Origin: a virus
IMG/VR virus record: IMGVR_UViG_3300030329_000436
Coordinates: 1 to 24,930 of that record
DNA length: 24,930 bases
Reading direction: 5' to 3' (one strand)
Made by a program: the position numbers and the translations under genes. The number at the start of each line of letters is the position of its first letter. Positions within the stretch are counted from its first letter, which is position 1. Positions 2,284 through 24,504 of this stretch are shown one piece after another. A model generated the notes under the pieces. It ran no database searches, was not told where the DNA came from, and saw only the letters and a list, made by a program, of their open reading frames with translations.

Positions 2284-3825
2284 ATGTATCAGACCGGAAA
2301 AGCCCTCTACACGCAGCTTGAAACCCTTCGGTTCTCATTTCTGGACCGTGCCAGAGACTGTTCGCGTCTGACCATTCCGACTCTGATTCCCGACGAGGGC
2401 CACACCGCTGGGCGAAAGTTCCCATGTCCGTACAACGGAACCGGGGCCAGGGGGGTAAACAACCTCGCATCTTCATTGCTCCTCAGTCTTCTTCCACCAA
2501 ACTCTCCGTTCTTCCGACTTGTTTTGGATGATGCGGCAATGAGACAGGTGGAGGGACTGCCTGATGTAAAGACTGAGGTTGAGCAAAGCCTAGCTGACAT
2601 CGAGAAAGCGGTCATGAAGGAAGTGGAATCCGAAAACATTCGGGTATCCATGTTTGAGATTCTCAAGCACTTGATCGTGGGTGGTAACTGTTTGATTCAG
2701 TTCCCCGATGAAGGTGGTGTGCGAGTGTTCCCCCTGTCCCGTTATGTCGTTCAACGGTGTGCAATGGGCAAGCCACTTCACATTGTCACCAAAGAATCTG
2801 TCCAACCTGACCAGCTTCCTGAAGAGATTCAGGGACAAGTTGGCGGGATGATGTCGGAAAGCCCGGACAAGTCGGTTGATTTGTTCACCTGCATTCACCG
2901 TGTTTCTGAAAAGAAATATGAGGTCTATCAGACTGTGGGTGATGTTGAAGTACCGGGCAGTAGAGGTTCATACCCTCATGAAAAGCTGCCGTTTATTCCA
3001 CTCCGAATGTATTCGGTTGAAGGTGAGGATTATGGGCGATCTTACGTCGAACAGTATCTCGGTGATCTCCGCAGCCTGGAAGGGCTTACGCAAGCTATTG
3101 TTGAAGGTGCCGCTGCCGCAAGCAAAATACTGTTCCTCGTGTCCCCTAACGGAACAACCCGTGCAAGAACGCTTGCGAAGAGCGCGAACGGGAGTATCGT
3201 TGAAGGAAATGCAGCAGATGTGTCCGTACTACAGTCTCAGAAGCAGGCTGATCTTGGTATTGCGGCCTCGACGGCTAACGCGATCACGGAGCGGTTGTCA
3301 TATGCCTTCCTGCTCACAGAATCCACCATCAGAAACGCCGAACGAGTAACTGCTGAAGAAATCCGGCTGCTCAGTCAGTCGATTGAAAAGCAACTTGGTG
3401 GTGCCTTCAGTCTCCTCAGTTCTGAACTCCAGCTACCCCTGGTAAACAGAATGATGGATCGACTTCAAAAGGCTAGAAAGCTCCCGAAGCTCCCCAAGAA
3501 GTTCATTGCCCCCACCATCATCACAGGTGTTGAAGCTCTAGCCAGAGGAAACGACCTCCAGCGTCTCGACTTCTTCTTGCAGGGCATGACACAAACGGTC
3601 GGTCCAGAGGTGATCGGTCAGTTCGTACACATGCGAGAGTACATCAAGAGACGGGCAACTGCTCTTGGTATTGATCTACAAGGTCTCATTAAGACCGAAG
3701 AAGAGTTGCAGGCTGAAATGCAACAGGCGCAACAGCAGCAGGCAATTCAACAGTTTGGGCCACAAGCCCTGGATATCGCGGACAGGCAGTTCCGTGACGC
3801 ACAACAAATCGAGCAAGGAAGCTAA
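2284..3825 (+). CDS. portal / head-tail connector protein (T7 gp8-like)
   Basis: A 513-residue podophage portal. The N-terminus contains the family signature: R-D-C-S-x-L-T-I-P-T-L, then PYNGTGARGVNNLASSLLLSLLPPNSPFF. The middle contains PLSRYVVQRCAMGKP and the stem/clip-like segment PHEKLPFIPLRMYSVEGEDYGRSYVEQYLGDLRSL with its conserved glycines. The C-terminus has NAERVTAEEIRLLSQSIEKQLGGAFSLLS, ending in a Gln-rich barrel-like tail (QQAQQQQAIQQF). The portal forms the dodecameric ring at one capsid vertex, through which DNA is packaged and ejected and to which tail tube A binds. Start supported by GGAG at 2276-2279. It is followed after three bases by the scaffold gene. Confidence 0.95.
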   Translation: MYQTGKALYTQLETLRFSFLDRARDCSRLTIPTLIPDEGHTAGRKFPCPYNGTGARGVNNLASSLLLSLLPPNSPFFRLVLDDAAMRQVEGLPDVKTEVEQSLADIEKAVMKEVESENIRVSMFEILKHLIVGGNCLIQFPDEGGVRVFPLSRYVVQRCAMGKPLHIVTKESVQPDQLPEEIQGQVGGMMSESPDKSVDLFTCIHRVSEKKYEVYQTVGDVEVPGSRGSYPHEKLPFIPLRMYSVEGEDYGRSYVEQYLGDLRSLEGLTQAIVEGAAAASKILFLVSPNGTTRARTLAKSANGSIVEGNAADVSVLQSQKQADLGIAASTANAITERLSYAFLLTESTIRNAERVTAEEIRLLSQSIEKQLGGAFSLLSSELQLPLVNRMMDRLQKARKLPKLPKKFIAPTIITGVEALARGNDLQRLDFFLQGMTQTVGPEVIGQFVHMREYIKRRATALGIDLQGLIKTEEELQAEMQQAQQQQAIQQFGPQALDIADRQFRDAQQIEQGS

Positions 3826-3828
3826 CAC

Positions 3829-4566
3829 ATGGCAGAACGAATTCAGATGGATACTGGGGTAACCGGACCTGAAGCACCTGTTGAAACCACAGAAGAACAA
3901 GCTGTTGACCGACCGGAATGGCTCCCAGAAAAGTTTCAGTCACCTGAAGACATGGCGAAGGCGTATGGTGAACTTGAATCAAAAATGGGTGAAGAACCCG
4001 AGTCATCTGAAAATGAGCAAGAGTATGAGGAAGACCACACCCAAGAAGTTGAAGGTGTTGCCATCACGGAAACGGCAATGGAAGAGTTCTCCAACGAGTT
4101 CTACGAAAAAGGCGACCTGTCTGAAGAAACCTTGGACCGCATTCAAGATGAGTTTGGGGTCTCGAAAGAGATTGCAAGGGCATACGTCGATGGTCAAAAG
4201 GCGTTGGTTGAACAGGCACAGCAAACGATTTTCGCTGAAGTTGGTGGGCAAGAGAACTACCAAGAGATGCTTGAATGGGCTAAGACAAACCTGACTGAAT
4301 CTGAGATTAACGCTTACGATTCTGCGATTGTTTCTAACGACATTGAAACTGCTCGTATGGTCGCAAAGGGACTTCATGCTCAGTACATAGGATCAGAAGG
4401 TATTAACCCGTCCCTGGCACATGGGTCGGCAGCATCGGTTGCTGGTACAGAAGGGTATGGAAGCTGGCAGCAAGTTTCAGCAGATATGGCAAAGCCTGAG
4501 TACAAGAATGATCCTGCTTTTAGAGAGATGGTGAAGAACAAGTTGAGCGTGTCCCGCTTGACTTAA
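3829..4566 (+). CDS. capsid assembly scaffolding protein (T7 gp9-like)
   Basis: A 245-residue, strongly acidic protein between portal and capsid genes, the standard place of the scaffold. It carries the scaffold-type motif DRPEWLPEKFQSPEDMAKAY near residues 27-46, followed by a low-complexity Glu-rich region (about 55-75) and predicted helices (FSNEFYEKGDLSEETLDRI, EFGVSKEIARAYVDGQKAL). The C-terminal part (YGSWQQVSADMAKPEYKNDP) resembles the conserved end seen in T7-like scaffolds. It would guide capsid-subunit assembly and then leave the procapsid. AGGAAG precedes the ATG. Sequence conservation of this family is low, so position weighs heavily in the call. Confidence 0.9.
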   Translation: MAERIQMDTGVTGPEAPVETTEEQAVDRPEWLPEKFQSPEDMAKAYGELESKMGEEPESSENEQEYEEDHTQEVEGVAITETAMEEFSNEFYEKGDLSEETLDRIQDEFGVSKEIARAYVDGQKALVEQAQQTIFAEVGGQENYQEMLEWAKTNLTESEINAYDSAIVSNDIETARMVAKGLHAQYIGSEGINPSLAHGSAASVAGTEGYGSWQQVSADMAKPEYKNDPAFREMVKNKLSVSRLT

Positions 4567-4591: not shown

Positions 4592-4801
4592 ATGGAAGAG
4601 CATCTAACTACCATTGCGGTGGGGTTGGTGATCCCAACTATTCTTGGGATGTTTGGGTTCCTGTGGAAAGTCAATGCCAGGATTTCTCGAATAGAGAGAG
4701 ACCTAAAGGCACACGACAACAGAATCGGGCAAAACACTAGAACCTTGCAATCACACTTTGAAAAGGCATTCACAATAAGAAAGAGCATCAGTGATATATG
4801 A
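4592..4801 (+). CDS. small membrane protein, N-terminal TM plus coiled coil (holin-like candidate)
   Basis: A 69-residue protein with one hydrophobic segment (about 6-25, TIAVGLVIPTILGMFGFLWK), then a basic/acidic amphipathic stretch with coiled-coil character (NARISRIERDLKAHDNRIGQ). Small one-span proteins with a heptad tail are typical of phage holins, antiholins and XhlA-like lysis accessory proteins, but the sequence alone does not settle this. It follows the scaffold gene after 25 bases that hold a very G-rich ribosome site (GGGGGAGGG, then GGGGG next to the ATG). The stop overlaps the start of the next gene (ATGA at 4798), suggesting coupled translation. Confidence 0.7.
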   Translation: MEEHLTTIAVGLVIPTILGMFGFLWKVNARISRIERDLKAHDNRIGQNTRTLQSHFEKAFTIRKSISDI

Positions 4802-5160
4802 TTCGATTACTCTTTCTTGCCCTGCTTTTAACTGGGTGTAAGGCAACTACTTTTTTACCAACCGGCCCTGAAACAACAACACAACGATTGGTGGAATCCG
4901 CATCGTCGGAACCACTCACGGTACTGTCTGTGACGGGCGGCTTGTGTCTACTGGCCGGGATGGTGCTGCTGGTTGTTACTTCTGGCCGCAAGGGCTGGTA
5001 TCCCGTAATTGGCGGATTGCTGCTCGTGGTTTTGAATTACGTCGTAGCCCGTTATTCGCACTATTTATTTGCACCGGCCATTGTGTTTACGGGCATGATA
5101 AGTGCTGCTTGGACATACAAAACCATCAAACAAATTCTTCTGGAGAAGAAATCAAAATGA
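4798..5160 (+). CDS. predicted multi-span lipoprotein, function unknown
   Basis: A 120-residue protein beginning with a short lipoprotein signal peptide: MIRLLFLALLLTGC, lipobox L11-T12-G13-C14. A short Thr-rich linker precedes three hydrophobic segments (about 39-62, 67-86 and 91-110) and a basic tail (LLEKKSK). A lipid-anchored N-terminus combined with several membrane spans differs from the usual o-spanin or u-spanin designs. I recognise no family. It is coupled by overlap to the genes on both sides (ATGA at 4798 and at 5157), so the three small membrane proteins are probably made together. A role in lysis or envelope modification is an inference from topology. Confidence 0.7.
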   Translation: MIRLLFLALLLTGCKATTFLPTGPETTTQRLVESASSEPLTVLSVTGGLCLLAGMVLLVVTSGRKGWYPVIGGLLLVVLNYVVARYSHYLFAPAIVFTGMISAAWTYKTIKQILLEKKSK

Positions 5161-21551: not shown

Positions 21552-23225
21552 ATGACAGACCCCCGACTACAAGACTTCAGAAACTTTCTGTACTTGTGTT
21601 GGGAACATCTTGGTCTGCCAGACCCCACCCCAGTCCAGTACGACATTGCTGAGTACATTCAAAACGGACCAAAACGTCGCTGCGTGATGGCGTTCCGTGG
21701 TGTTGGCAAGTCTTGGATCACCTCGGCATTCGTAGTGCATCAGTTGTTGTTGGACCCGACAAAGAACATCCTGGTGGTCTCAGCATCCAAACAACGTGCC
21801 GATGACTTTTCGACGTTTACGTTGCGGTTGATTGATGAGATGCCAATCCTGCAACACCTCAAACCAAATGAGAACCAACGAAACTCAAAGATCGCCTTTG
21901 ATGTCGGTCCTGCACCTGCTGCACATGCTCCGTCAGTAACCTCAAAAGGTCTTCAGTCGCAGATAACCGGAGCCAGAGCCGACCTGATTATTGCAGACGA
22001 TGCGGAGTCCTTGACCAATTCCGCCACTCAAATGATGCGTGACAAGATGTCTGAACAGGTCAAGGAGTTCGACGCTGTTCTCAAACCCGGTGGTCAGATC
22101 CTGTACCTGGGAACACCACAGACAGAAGCCAGTATTTACAACCAGCTACCAGAGCGTGGGTACGACATCCGAATCTGGCCTGCACGAATTCCATCTGAAA
22201 AACAACGTCTTGGATATGGAAATAGATTGGCACCCCTCATTGCCGACATGGATCTTGAGGAGAGTGAGCCGGTAGACCCAAAGAGATTCAACACATTTGA
22301 CCTGCTTGAGCGGGAAGCGTCTTACGGGAAATCCGGTTTCGCCCTCCAGTTCATGCTGGACACCACACTGTCTGACGTTGATCGTTACCCGTTGAAGCTG
22401 TCTGACCTTGTGGTGATGCGTCTCGACAAAGAACACGCTCCTGAGAAGATCATCTGGGCCGGTAGTCCCGAGTATGCCTACAAGGATCTTCCATGTGTTG
22501 GGATGGCTGGAGACAGGTACTACATGCCGATGGGTGTCTCAGGAGAGTTCCTGAAGTATCAAGGCTCAGTCCTCGCAATAGACCCAAGCGGACGCGGAAA
22601 AGATGAAACCGCTTTTTGCGTTTGTAAGATGCTGAACTCGACCTGTTTCGTGACTGCTGCCGGGGGTCTCCCAGGTGGGTATGACAATGACACCTTGAAA
22701 TCGCTGGCGGTGATCGCCAAGGAACATCAGGTCAATGAGGTCATCATCGAATCCAACTTCGGTGACGGCATGTTCACGGCTCTGTTCCAGCCAGTTCTAG
22801 CAAAGATACATCGCGTCACGATCAACGAAGTTCGCCACAATATCCAGAAAGAACGACGCATTTTGGATGTTTTAGAGCCGGTCATCCAAAACCACAAACT
22901 GATCGTAGATGAGGCTGTAATTCATAAGGATTACAACTCCACTGCCCATCTTCCTCCAGACAAGGCACTGAAATACCAACTCTTCTACCAGATGACCCGG
23001 CTGACTCGTGACAGGGGATCACTGGCTCACGATGACCGTCTGGATGTGTTGGCAATCGCCGTGAACTACTGGACTGAACAGATGTCCAGGGATGTAGATG
23101 AGGCCATGAAGTCTCACAAGAACGACAAACTCCACCGAGAACTCGACAAGTTCGTCGATAATGCCCTCGGCAGAAAGACTAATCAGGAACCATCATGGAT
23201 AAACTCGCAGAACTTCGGGCAGTAA
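21552..23225 (+). CDS. terminase large subunit (T7 gp19-like)
   Basis: A 557-residue packaging motor. The ATPase half has Walker A FRGVGKS (48-54), Walker B LIIADD (145-150) with E152, and the coupling motif YLGTP (185-189). The nuclease half has AIDPSGRGKDE (342-352; D344 a metal ligand), IIESNFGDG (398-406; E400, D405) and LAHDDRLD (491-498), the usual RNase H-like acidic set. Length is near T7 gp19 (586). It pumps DNA into the procapsid through the portal and cuts concatemers. AAAGG precedes the ATG. The last 31 bases overlap a small downstream ORF. Confidence 0.96.
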   Translation: MTDPRLQDFRNFLYLCWEHLGLPDPTPVQYDIAEYIQNGPKRRCVMAFRGVGKSWITSAFVVHQLLLDPTKNILVVSASKQRADDFSTFTLRLIDEMPILQHLKPNENQRNSKIAFDVGPAPAAHAPSVTSKGLQSQITGARADLIIADDAESLTNSATQMMRDKMSEQVKEFDAVLKPGGQILYLGTPQTEASIYNQLPERGYDIRIWPARIPSEKQRLGYGNRLAPLIADMDLEESEPVDPKRFNTFDLLEREASYGKSGFALQFMLDTTLSDVDRYPLKLSDLVVMRLDKEHAPEKIIWAGSPEYAYKDLPCVGMAGDRYYMPMGVSGEFLKYQGSVLAIDPSGRGKDETAFCVCKMLNSTCFVTAAGGLPGGYDNDTLKSLAVIAKEHQVNEVIIESNFGDGMFTALFQPVLAKIHRVTINEVRHNIQKERRILDVLEPVIQNHKLIVDEAVIHKDYNSTAHLPPDKALKYQLFYQMTRLTRDRGSLAHDDRLDVLAIAVNYWTEQMSRDVDEAMKSHKNDKLHRELDKFVDNALGRKTNQEPSWINSQNFGQ

Positions 23226-23457: not shown

Positions 23458-23757
23458 ATGTCACAGACCAGTAAGGGCGGTAAATACGCTCGTAATTTTT
23501 CATACGGTAAACGAAGAAAAAGGTCGTATAGGTCTGGGCTGGGTGACGATGACCAAGAAAACGTTGGAAAGCCTGTTCCACCCATATATCCTATCCCTCC
23601 TATGCTGGATGGGCCAAGACAACCCACCATCGTTCAACCAGATAAACAGCCCCAAAAGCACCAAACACAATGTTCACCAAATAAACATGGTGGTTTTAGT
23701 TGTAAAAATCTCAGCACAACCAAGCCACGCAAAAAGCGTTGTCAATACGGATGTTAG
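23458..23757 (+). CDS. cationic, Pro- and Cys-containing protein, function unknown
   Basis: A 99-residue protein with a basic N-terminus (GGKYARNFSYGKRRKRSYRS), a Pro-rich middle (KPVPPIYPIPPMLDGPRQP) and a C-terminal Lys-rich part with four cysteines (CSPNKHGGFSCKN and KRCQYGC) that could bind a metal or form disulfides. No family is recognised. CAGGAGA at 23445-23451, six bases before the ATG, supports this start. An alternative frame at 23543-23920 overlaps most of it but has no comparable ribosome site and runs through the structured region downstream, so I prefer this one. Confidence 0.55.
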   Translation: MSQTSKGGKYARNFSYGKRRKRSYRSGLGDDDQENVGKPVPPIYPIPPMLDGPRQPTIVQPDKQPQKHQTQCSPNKHGGFSCKNLSTTKPRKKRCQYGC

Positions 23758-23776
23758 GATTAAGGACAACTATTTG

Positions 23777-23793
23777 AGAAGCATCAGGCTTCT
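23777..23793 (+). other. hairpin AGAAGC/GCTTCT
   Basis: Six perfect pairs around a five-base loop (ATCAG), lying 20 bases after the cationic-protein stop. No T run follows, so it is a weak terminator at best. Confidence 0.4.
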
Positions 23794-23818
23794 TGGGGTC
23801 GATCAAACTCAGGACTCA

Positions 23819-23937
23819 GGAAAATTCCCGATCCTATACCCACCCTACATCCTCTATGAACCAGGATTGAGTGCATCCTTGACTGGTTCGTGGGGGGGTA
23901 GGGGGGGTCTCCTAAACTAGGATCTTGGAAAATTCCC
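23819..23937. repeat. nested inverted repeats flanking G7-TA-G7, bounded by direct repeats
   Basis: From the outside in: direct repeat GGAAAATTCCC (23819-23829 and 23927-23937); inverted repeat GATCCTA/TAGGATC (23830-23836 with 23918-23924); CCCACCCTAC (23839-23848) facing GTAGGGGGGG (23898-23907), nine of ten pairs; and GAACCAG/CTGGTTC (23858-23864 with 23883-23889) enclosing a possible inner GAT/ATC pair. Together these allow one long branched-free hairpin of about 95 bases. The G7-TA-G7 tract (23892-23907) could instead fold as a G-quadruplex. Confidence 0.6.
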
Positions 23938-23964
23938 ATAAATCTAACTATTTCAACTACTTAC

Positions 23965-23977
23965 AACTACTTAAAAC
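23965..23977 (+). repeat. 13-base direct repeat, copy 2 (AACTACTTAAAAC)
   Basis: Second exact copy of the element at 23407-23419. It is preceded by an extra half copy, making a tandem CAACTACTTA pair at 23954-23963 and 23964-23973. A degenerate third copy (AACTCAGTTAAAAC, 24023-24036) touches the start codon of the next gene. Confidence 0.4.
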
Positions 23978-23979
23978 AT

Positions 23980-24020
23980 AGTGGTGGTAGATGAATTAAA
24001 AGAATAGATTTCTAACCACT
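23980..24020 (+). promoter_or_regulatory. bulged hairpin upstream of the dockerin-like gene
   Basis: AGTGGT (23980-23985) and TAGA (23988-23991) pair with TCTAACCACT (24011-24020), giving ten pairs with a two-base bulge and an A-rich loop of 19 bases. It ends 16 bases before the ATG at 24037, a place where it could affect translation or mark the end of upstream transcription. Confidence 0.4.
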
Positions 24021-24036
24021 GAAACTCAGTTAAAAC

Positions 24037-24504
24037 ATGTTTAAGTCAGTTATAGCTCTTGTTCTACTCATTAATTCAATCGAGTACACTGTACAGACTA
24101 CTGGGCCTAGAACTGTAGTTGAAGGTACAGTACGACTGCATTTTAACGAAGACCAACAAACCGATTGTTTACAACACACCTTTGAACTCATCAAAGGACG
24201 TTTGGGTGGGCCTGTAACTTCTTCCCAACCTGGACAACCAATGTTGGCGTTTGACACCGTGGTTCATGTTGACAATCAAGTGTCCATTGAATGGTGTCGA
24301 ACCATCAGCGATTTGCAAAACCTTCCTTGCGAATCACCACGACATTTCAACTTTTACGTCATCAAAAATACCTACACCGCTCAAGACCTCACCAAACTAC
24401 TCGCAGAGTGGGGAAACACCGACAGCGTGTGGGATCTCAATCTCGATGGAGCAGTAGATGGTCTTGACTTGACCTATGTACTTGGGAACTGGGTCAATGA
24501 ATAG
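24037..24504 (+). CDS. secreted protein with C-terminal dockerin-like calcium loop
   Basis: A 155-residue protein with an N-terminal hydrophobic signal-like segment (MFKSVIALVLLINSIEYTVQ), a beta-rich middle with three cysteines (C44, C87, C98), and a C-terminal dockerin type I-like end. That end has the helix TAQDLTKLLAEWG (114-126), then the calcium-loop pattern DLNLDGAVDGLD (133-144; D133, N135, D137, D141, D144) and helix LTYVLGNW. A complete dockerin has two such loops; here the first loop is degenerate. This repeat style is very common in planctomycete exported proteins. No good Shine-Dalgarno precedes the ATG, which sits in the palindrome AAACATGTTT. It is probably an accessory (moron-like) gene acquired from the host. 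Function unknown; calcium binding or cell-surface attachment is inferred. Confidence 0.75.
   Translation: MFKSVIALVLLINSIEYTVQTTGPRTVVEGTVRLHFNEDQQTDCLQHTFELIKGRLGGPVTSSQPGQPMLAFDTVVHVDNQVSIEWCRTISDLQNLPCESPRHFNFYVIKNTYTAQDLTKLLAEWGNTDSVWDLNLDGAVDGLDLTYVLGNWVNE

Follow-up and report, generated by a model that had tools for sequence, protein, structure and literature searches.

A putatively exported phage protein with a divergent dockerin-like tail, and comparable tails in other uncultured viruses

Gene content of the locus

The window, that is, the whole 24,930-nucleotide stretch analyzed here, is an IMG/VR virus record. Its gene order is T7-like, running from the end of a DNA polymerase gene through exonuclease, connector, MCP, tail, and internal virion protein genes to the terminase large subunit (TerL), with phrog_449, 267, 446, 457, 308, and 38 matched in T7 order and the Pfam T7 terminase domain detected at an E value of 6.1e-40. 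Judged from their sequences, the TerL, head-tail connector, MCP, tail, and internal virion proteins occur in the order expected of a T7-like (Autographivirales-type) phage. No RNA polymerase gene was seen in the window, which is a fragment, and neither a tRNA or Rfam match nor a clear repeated phage promoter was found in it.

The ORF at positions 24037 to 24504 (plus strand) encodes an exported-looking protein of 155 amino acids with a dockerin-like C terminus, and its assignment as a gene is backed by homologues and dN/dS values. The ATG sits two codons past an in-frame stop, and no Shine-Dalgarno-like motif was found upstream, as was also the case for 4 of 20 other genes checked. The upstream neighbor is TerL, used here as the clade marker (21552 to 23225, plus strand; phrog_38, E value of 4.7e-113; 104 relatives). 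Downstream lies a 92-amino-acid ORF conserved in the phage clade (24513 to 24791, plus strand; phrog_25889, E value of 2.8e-5), with homologues in ∼25 relatives. The location of the 155-residue ORF among late genes points to late expression.

Signal-like N terminus and predicted beta-sandwich

The preliminary description of this DNA had noted a signal-like N terminus, and this was borne out. Residues 1 to 13 (24037 to 24075, plus strand) gave the highest N-terminal hydrophobicity among 21 window genes tested (Kyte-Doolittle 9-mer, 3.31), a value attained by 20/10,000 shuffles of the protein. By sequence, the protein has the hydrophobic N-terminal signal segment expected of a Sec-exported protein. 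In the AlphaFold2 model (pLDDT 75, pTM 0.70), the first long strand begins at residue 14, and residues 14 to 112 (24076 to 24372, plus strand) form a predicted beta-sandwich, followed by two C-terminal helices.

The beta-sandwich had no specific structural match. Fold searches with the model remained at noise level (PDB Z ∼6 at best, Foldseek E value of >0.1), and a match in BFVD was to another viral model (A0A516MFS6, E value of 1e-6, 21% identity), so that the function of the modeled protein cannot be read from fold searches. Many of the noise-level PDB matches were beta domains of carbohydrate-active enzymes, and dockerins classically join modules to scaffolds. Both observations would suit a secreted carbohydrate-binding protein whose sandwich binds envelope or matrix sugars and is joined to other modules through the tail. 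The likeness in overall shape to carbohydrate-binding and other CAZyme beta domains (CBM2-type chains, Z 5 to 6) is, however, at the tool's stated noise level, and no binding residues were identified, which makes this reading very doubtful. A globin match in the whole-protein Pfam, PHROGs, and NCBIfam scans was rejected as spurious.

The C-terminal tail is related to dockerins

The C terminus carries an intact calcium-loop motif, D-x-N-x-D-G-x-V-D-x-x-D, at residues 133 to 144 (24433 to 24468, plus strand), assigned from the sequence and from dockerin profile and PDB matches. All ligand positions are kept (D133-L-N135-L-D137-G-A-V-D141-G-L-D144). The loop is followed by a helix ending in LGNW at residues 142 to 152 (24460 to 24492, plus strand; residues 142 to 150 in the model), as the preliminary description had claimed. 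This second repeat is thus complete with respect to the dockerin pattern D-x-N-x-D-G-x-[VI]-[DN]-x-x-D plus helix. The first repeat, at residues 113 to 126 (YTAQDLTKLLAEWG; 24373 to 24414, plus strand), is degenerate and consists of a helix without a calcium loop (residues 115 to 124 in the model), so that two full loop-helix repeats are not present. When the protein and its homologues (family 1) were compared by hhalign with the two-repeat tail of the L173 type, which itself matches the dockerin_GC model at an E value of 4.6e-4, the alignment had a probability of 97.5% over 42 columns and paired YTAQDLTKLLAEWG with the repeat-1 helix. Homology of family 1 to the L173-type beta domains outside the tail received no support from the comparison.

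With the single sequence, dockerin_GC (NCBIfam NF041540), a probably mainly planctomycete model, was the sole match among 18,950 models, scoring 14.2 bits for the whole protein and 16.5 bits for the isolated C terminus against a cut-off of 29 and covering model positions 16 to 64 of 67. Pfam Dockerin_1 was the sole match of the isolated C terminus (E values of 0.03 to 0.04; 14.5 to 16 bits, cut-off 22.9). The 155-residue protein reached the curated single-sequence cut-off of no dockerin model, and a dockerin_GC scan of 24 related viral records gave no match at an E value of 0.1 or better. The family profiles resembled known dockerins more closely. The whole-family profile matched dockerins alone in the PDB up to an E value of 1 (best, 0.0043), and a profile of five family C termini, from which the interhelix insert of some members had been cut out by hand beforehand, matched PDB dockerins at E values of 3.9e-6 to 3.4e-5, with 10 of its 11 PDB matches up to an E value of 1 being dockerin or cellulosomal-enzyme chains. 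On these comparisons, the dockerin resemblance of the tail exceeds chance. The profile check of the C terminus proposed in the preliminary description thus returned dockerin models, below cut-off for the protein and at 3.9e-6 for the family, and its dockerin repeat holds at the level of family profiles, whereas the single sequence falls under the curated cut-offs and loop 1 is degenerate.

Because the first calcium loop is degenerate, leaving a helix-only repeat 1, the tail is best described from its sequence as dockerin-like and divergent, not as a canonical two-loop type I dockerin. It shares the loop-plus-helix arrangement and ligand spacing of type I dockerins (PF00404; PDB 6kg9, 6kgc, 6kge, and others) but has one intact loop instead of two, no attached cellulosomal enzyme, and no known cohesin partner. 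Family 1 resembles the GC-type dockerin-anchored proteins of NF041540 in combining a signal-like start with a dockerin-like tail at the C terminus. It differs from them in its score of 14 to 16.5 bits against the cut-off of 29, in the loss of the first calcium loop, in being virus encoded, and, in some members, in an insert of 10 to 20 residues between the two helices.

Distribution and optional presence of the gene

Family 1 was virus-only, occurring in ∼14 other IMG/VR contigs, some of them near-identical, from several unrelated phage types. The homologues (40 to 48% identity to the window protein), first found by tblastn on TerL relatives, lie just after TerL, as in the window, in relatives L002, L014, L015, and L016; those in other phage types are at L083, L084, L085, L086, L195, L199, L214, L218, L242, and L264. 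A signal-like start is present in every complete member, in L083 and L084 only if translation begins at a GTG that precedes the first ATG, and the N-terminal segment remains signal-like throughout while its sequence varies. Close pairs gave dN/dS values of 0.16 to 0.28, and the gene is under purifying selection. No homologue of the 155-residue protein was found in 50,697 phage records, a plasmid search gave no match, and 84,980 species genomes yielded no homologue of family 1 or of family 2, described below, by exact-short-peptide seeding, which is weak for fast-evolving proteins. The earlier proposal that the gene is host derived is accordingly unsupported, no cellular homologue having been found within the limits of that seeding.

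The sister phage L008, whose TerL is 96% identical, lacks the gene. In blastn of the window against L008, the stretch from 23939 to 24499 (plus strand) corresponded to a near-exact empty site, with 93 bases in L008 where the window holds 561 and flanks that are 91 to 94% identical. The view of the locus as a phage-encoded accessory gene of a T7-like phage is supported. The clean absence also argues against a virion or assembly component, in which the calcium loop would be a structural module as in other viral motif carriers and the hydrophobic start would not be a signal peptide. Such a role would fit the adjoining packaging and virion genes and the dockerin-like repeats in probably structural viral proteins that have no signal segment, but the N terminus is signal-like in all complete members, and the role is considered improbable.

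At seven loci besides the window, in different phage types, the family 1 gene directly follows a homologue of a 69-amino-acid TM/coiled-coil ORF (window positions 4592 to 4801, plus strand) or, at three of these (L085, L086, and L199), homologues of both this ORF and a 120-amino-acid ORF with a lipobox (LLLTGC) and TM segments (4798 to 5160, plus strand). This arrangement would be consistent with a lysis or egress factor that is exported late and, jointly with the TM/coiled-coil and lipobox products, breaks through the envelope of an atypical Gram-negative host. The tie to the lipobox ORF is loose, however, because relatives without family 1 (the records of L004 and L025) carry it as well. In addition, in the window's own clade the gene is far from both ORFs, and the TM ORF is only weakly XhlA-like (E value of 0.12), its holin role being unproven. 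A lysis factor is therefore regarded as rather unlikely, though less so than a virion component.

Dockerin-like motifs and tails in other viral proteins

A degenerate motif, DLNxDxxVDGxDL, matched 106 IMG/VR stretches. The carriers included exported subtilase-like proteins of ∼470 amino acids with two-repeat GC-type tails (up to 26.9 bits, E value of 4.8e-6), encoded at L184 4020 to 5423, L174 2532 to 3932, L217 3534 to 4952, and L258 2696 to 4102 (all minus strand) and at L180 8555 to 9958 and L207 3167 to 4591. Their subtilase motifs (NHGTAVAG and GTSFSSP) were recognized by eye, and Glu (IETG) occupies the position of the usual catalytic Asp. Other carriers were long viral proteins without a signal segment and with internal dockerin-like loops, among them L216, L228, L186, and others (MAILKNYNP...) and L171 and L203 (MYKAKGSKASFDLLF...); these are probably structural. 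From the sequences, the motif is neither rare in viruses nor confined to exported proteins. The preliminary view that such repeats are unusual in phages was not supported, given the 106 stretches, but searches of named phage records revealed no such repeat.

A second exported-looking family of ∼345 amino acids (family 2), encoded at 79 loci, is strongly conserved (dN/dS of 0.04 to 0.09 where measurable) and has a dockerin-related C-terminal tail of the form SCPSDLNEDGxVGFxDLLxVL...ILKVLSEWGxC. It occurs in the T7-like clade and in other phages, and in L116 it adjoins a T4-type head gene. The tail profile matched EF-hand and dockerin chains about equally (E values of 0.0007 to 0.02), so that dockerin membership is less certain for this family, and its predicted structure was unusable (pLDDT 40). 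Like family 1, family 2 is viral, looks exported, ends in a dockerin-like tail, and is found in part in this T7-like clade, but its main domain seems unrelated, it is far more conserved and widespread, and it keeps its intact loop in repeat 1 instead of repeat 2. Comparison of the two families outside the tail gave no support for homology. In L116, a T4-like contig, the 345-residue family is directly followed by a second, different exported dockerin-like ORF (3464 to 4297; ..WEDLNYDDRVDFGDLLMVL..).

Of the 61 family 2 loci examined, at least 11 had an ORF ending in a PEP-CTERM-like sequence within ∼900 bases downstream, often immediately adjacent. Those at L096 3431 to 4054, L105 9073 to 9702, L111 5084 to 5701, L116 4333 to 4953, and L147 7652 to 8287 combine a signal-like start with a PAP/PTP motif, a hydrophobic stretch, and a basic tail. 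For three such ORFs, PEP-CTERM was the best or second Pfam match at E values of 0.002 to 0.012, just under the cut-off, with related NCBIfam matches. The PEP-CTERM-like family found downstream of family 2 is encoded at 34 IMG/VR loci. The open-access literature searched yielded no paper on dockerin-tailed or PEP-CTERM proteins encoded by phages, which leaves their absence from the literature unproven.

Proposed role and host

The reading preferred here, given about an even chance of being correct, is that the gene encodes an exported accessory protein whose tail tethers it to the envelope or matrix of the host. The protein would be optional and probably made late; the host Sec system would export it, its signal segment would be removed, and the small beta-sandwich would be the working domain. 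The dockerin-like calcium tail would hold it at the outer envelope or in the extracellular matrix, the role proposed for such tails on proteins of the host itself. The data show the gene, its conservation, its optional presence, and its relation to dockerins, whereas export, calcium binding, tethering, timing, and benefit are inferred. Export and tethering are favored by the signal-like starts, the dockerin-profile tail, the intact loop ligands, and purifying selection, as well as by the near-exact presence/absence relative to L008, the spread over phage types, and the late-gene neighbors (TerL, virion, TM, and lipobox ORFs). Against them stand the missed curated dockerin cut-offs, the degeneracy of one of the two loops, and a fold search that gave no function. 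Comparable tails on unrelated exported viral proteins, some subtilase-like, are what a portable tag would predict. Because similar motifs are also present in viral proteins that lack a signal segment, the tail does not necessarily imply tethering at the surface.

The displayed protein would most likely alter the surface to the benefit of the phage, either through receptor masking, which would prevent the loss of progeny to the dying cell or its debris or would exclude rivals, or through assistance in breaching the envelope at lysis. Confidence in any single one of these tasks falls well short of even, and superinfection exclusion, raised in the preliminary description, is a guess.

That the host is a planctomycete is plausible but unproven. 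Planctomycetota would fit the combination of the GC-type dockerin match with the PEP-CTERM-like neighbors in related loci. PEP-CTERM has been reported in Planctomycetes, Verrucomicrobiae, Cyanobacteria, and Proteobacteria (PMC1569441), and cohesin/dockerin modules have been reported in freshwater Planctomycetes (PMC6461901).

Some bacteria use calcium-loop tags of this type to position proteins on their surface, and the recurrence of similar tags on exported proteins of several kinds, in many uncultured viruses, raises the possibility that viruses may be borrowing a host system for surface placement. More specifically, a broad set of aquatic viruses, probably with planctomycete-like hosts in common, could encode their own exported set of unrelated dockerin-tailed, subtilase-like, and PEP-CTERM-like proteins and use host surface sorting to remodel the surface of the infected cell, the window gene being one exchangeable part. 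This broader proposal is tentative, and somewhat more probably wrong than right. If viruses do carry host surface-sorting tails, these would offer, for uncultured phages, a clue to the host that can be read from sequence and would define a new class of viral envelope-remodeling proteins. The dockerin-like tails are readily testable for calcium binding and surface placement.

Additional features of the window

Between the DNA polymerase and exonuclease genes, an ORF at 275 to 826 contains AGYLDAEGCF, which resembles the LAGLIDADG homing-endonuclease motif; Pfam gave no match to this ORF up to an E value of 1. A basic 99-amino-acid ORF at 23458 to 23757 has a good Shine-Dalgarno motif and is also absent from sister phages L001 and L008. 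The ∼180 bases at 23761 to 23938 have no evident gene, are 94% identical in L001 and L008 and ∼75% identical in L002 and L004, and include two copies of GGAAAATTCCC, at 23819 and 23927; this stretch is perhaps a control, packaging, or terminal element.
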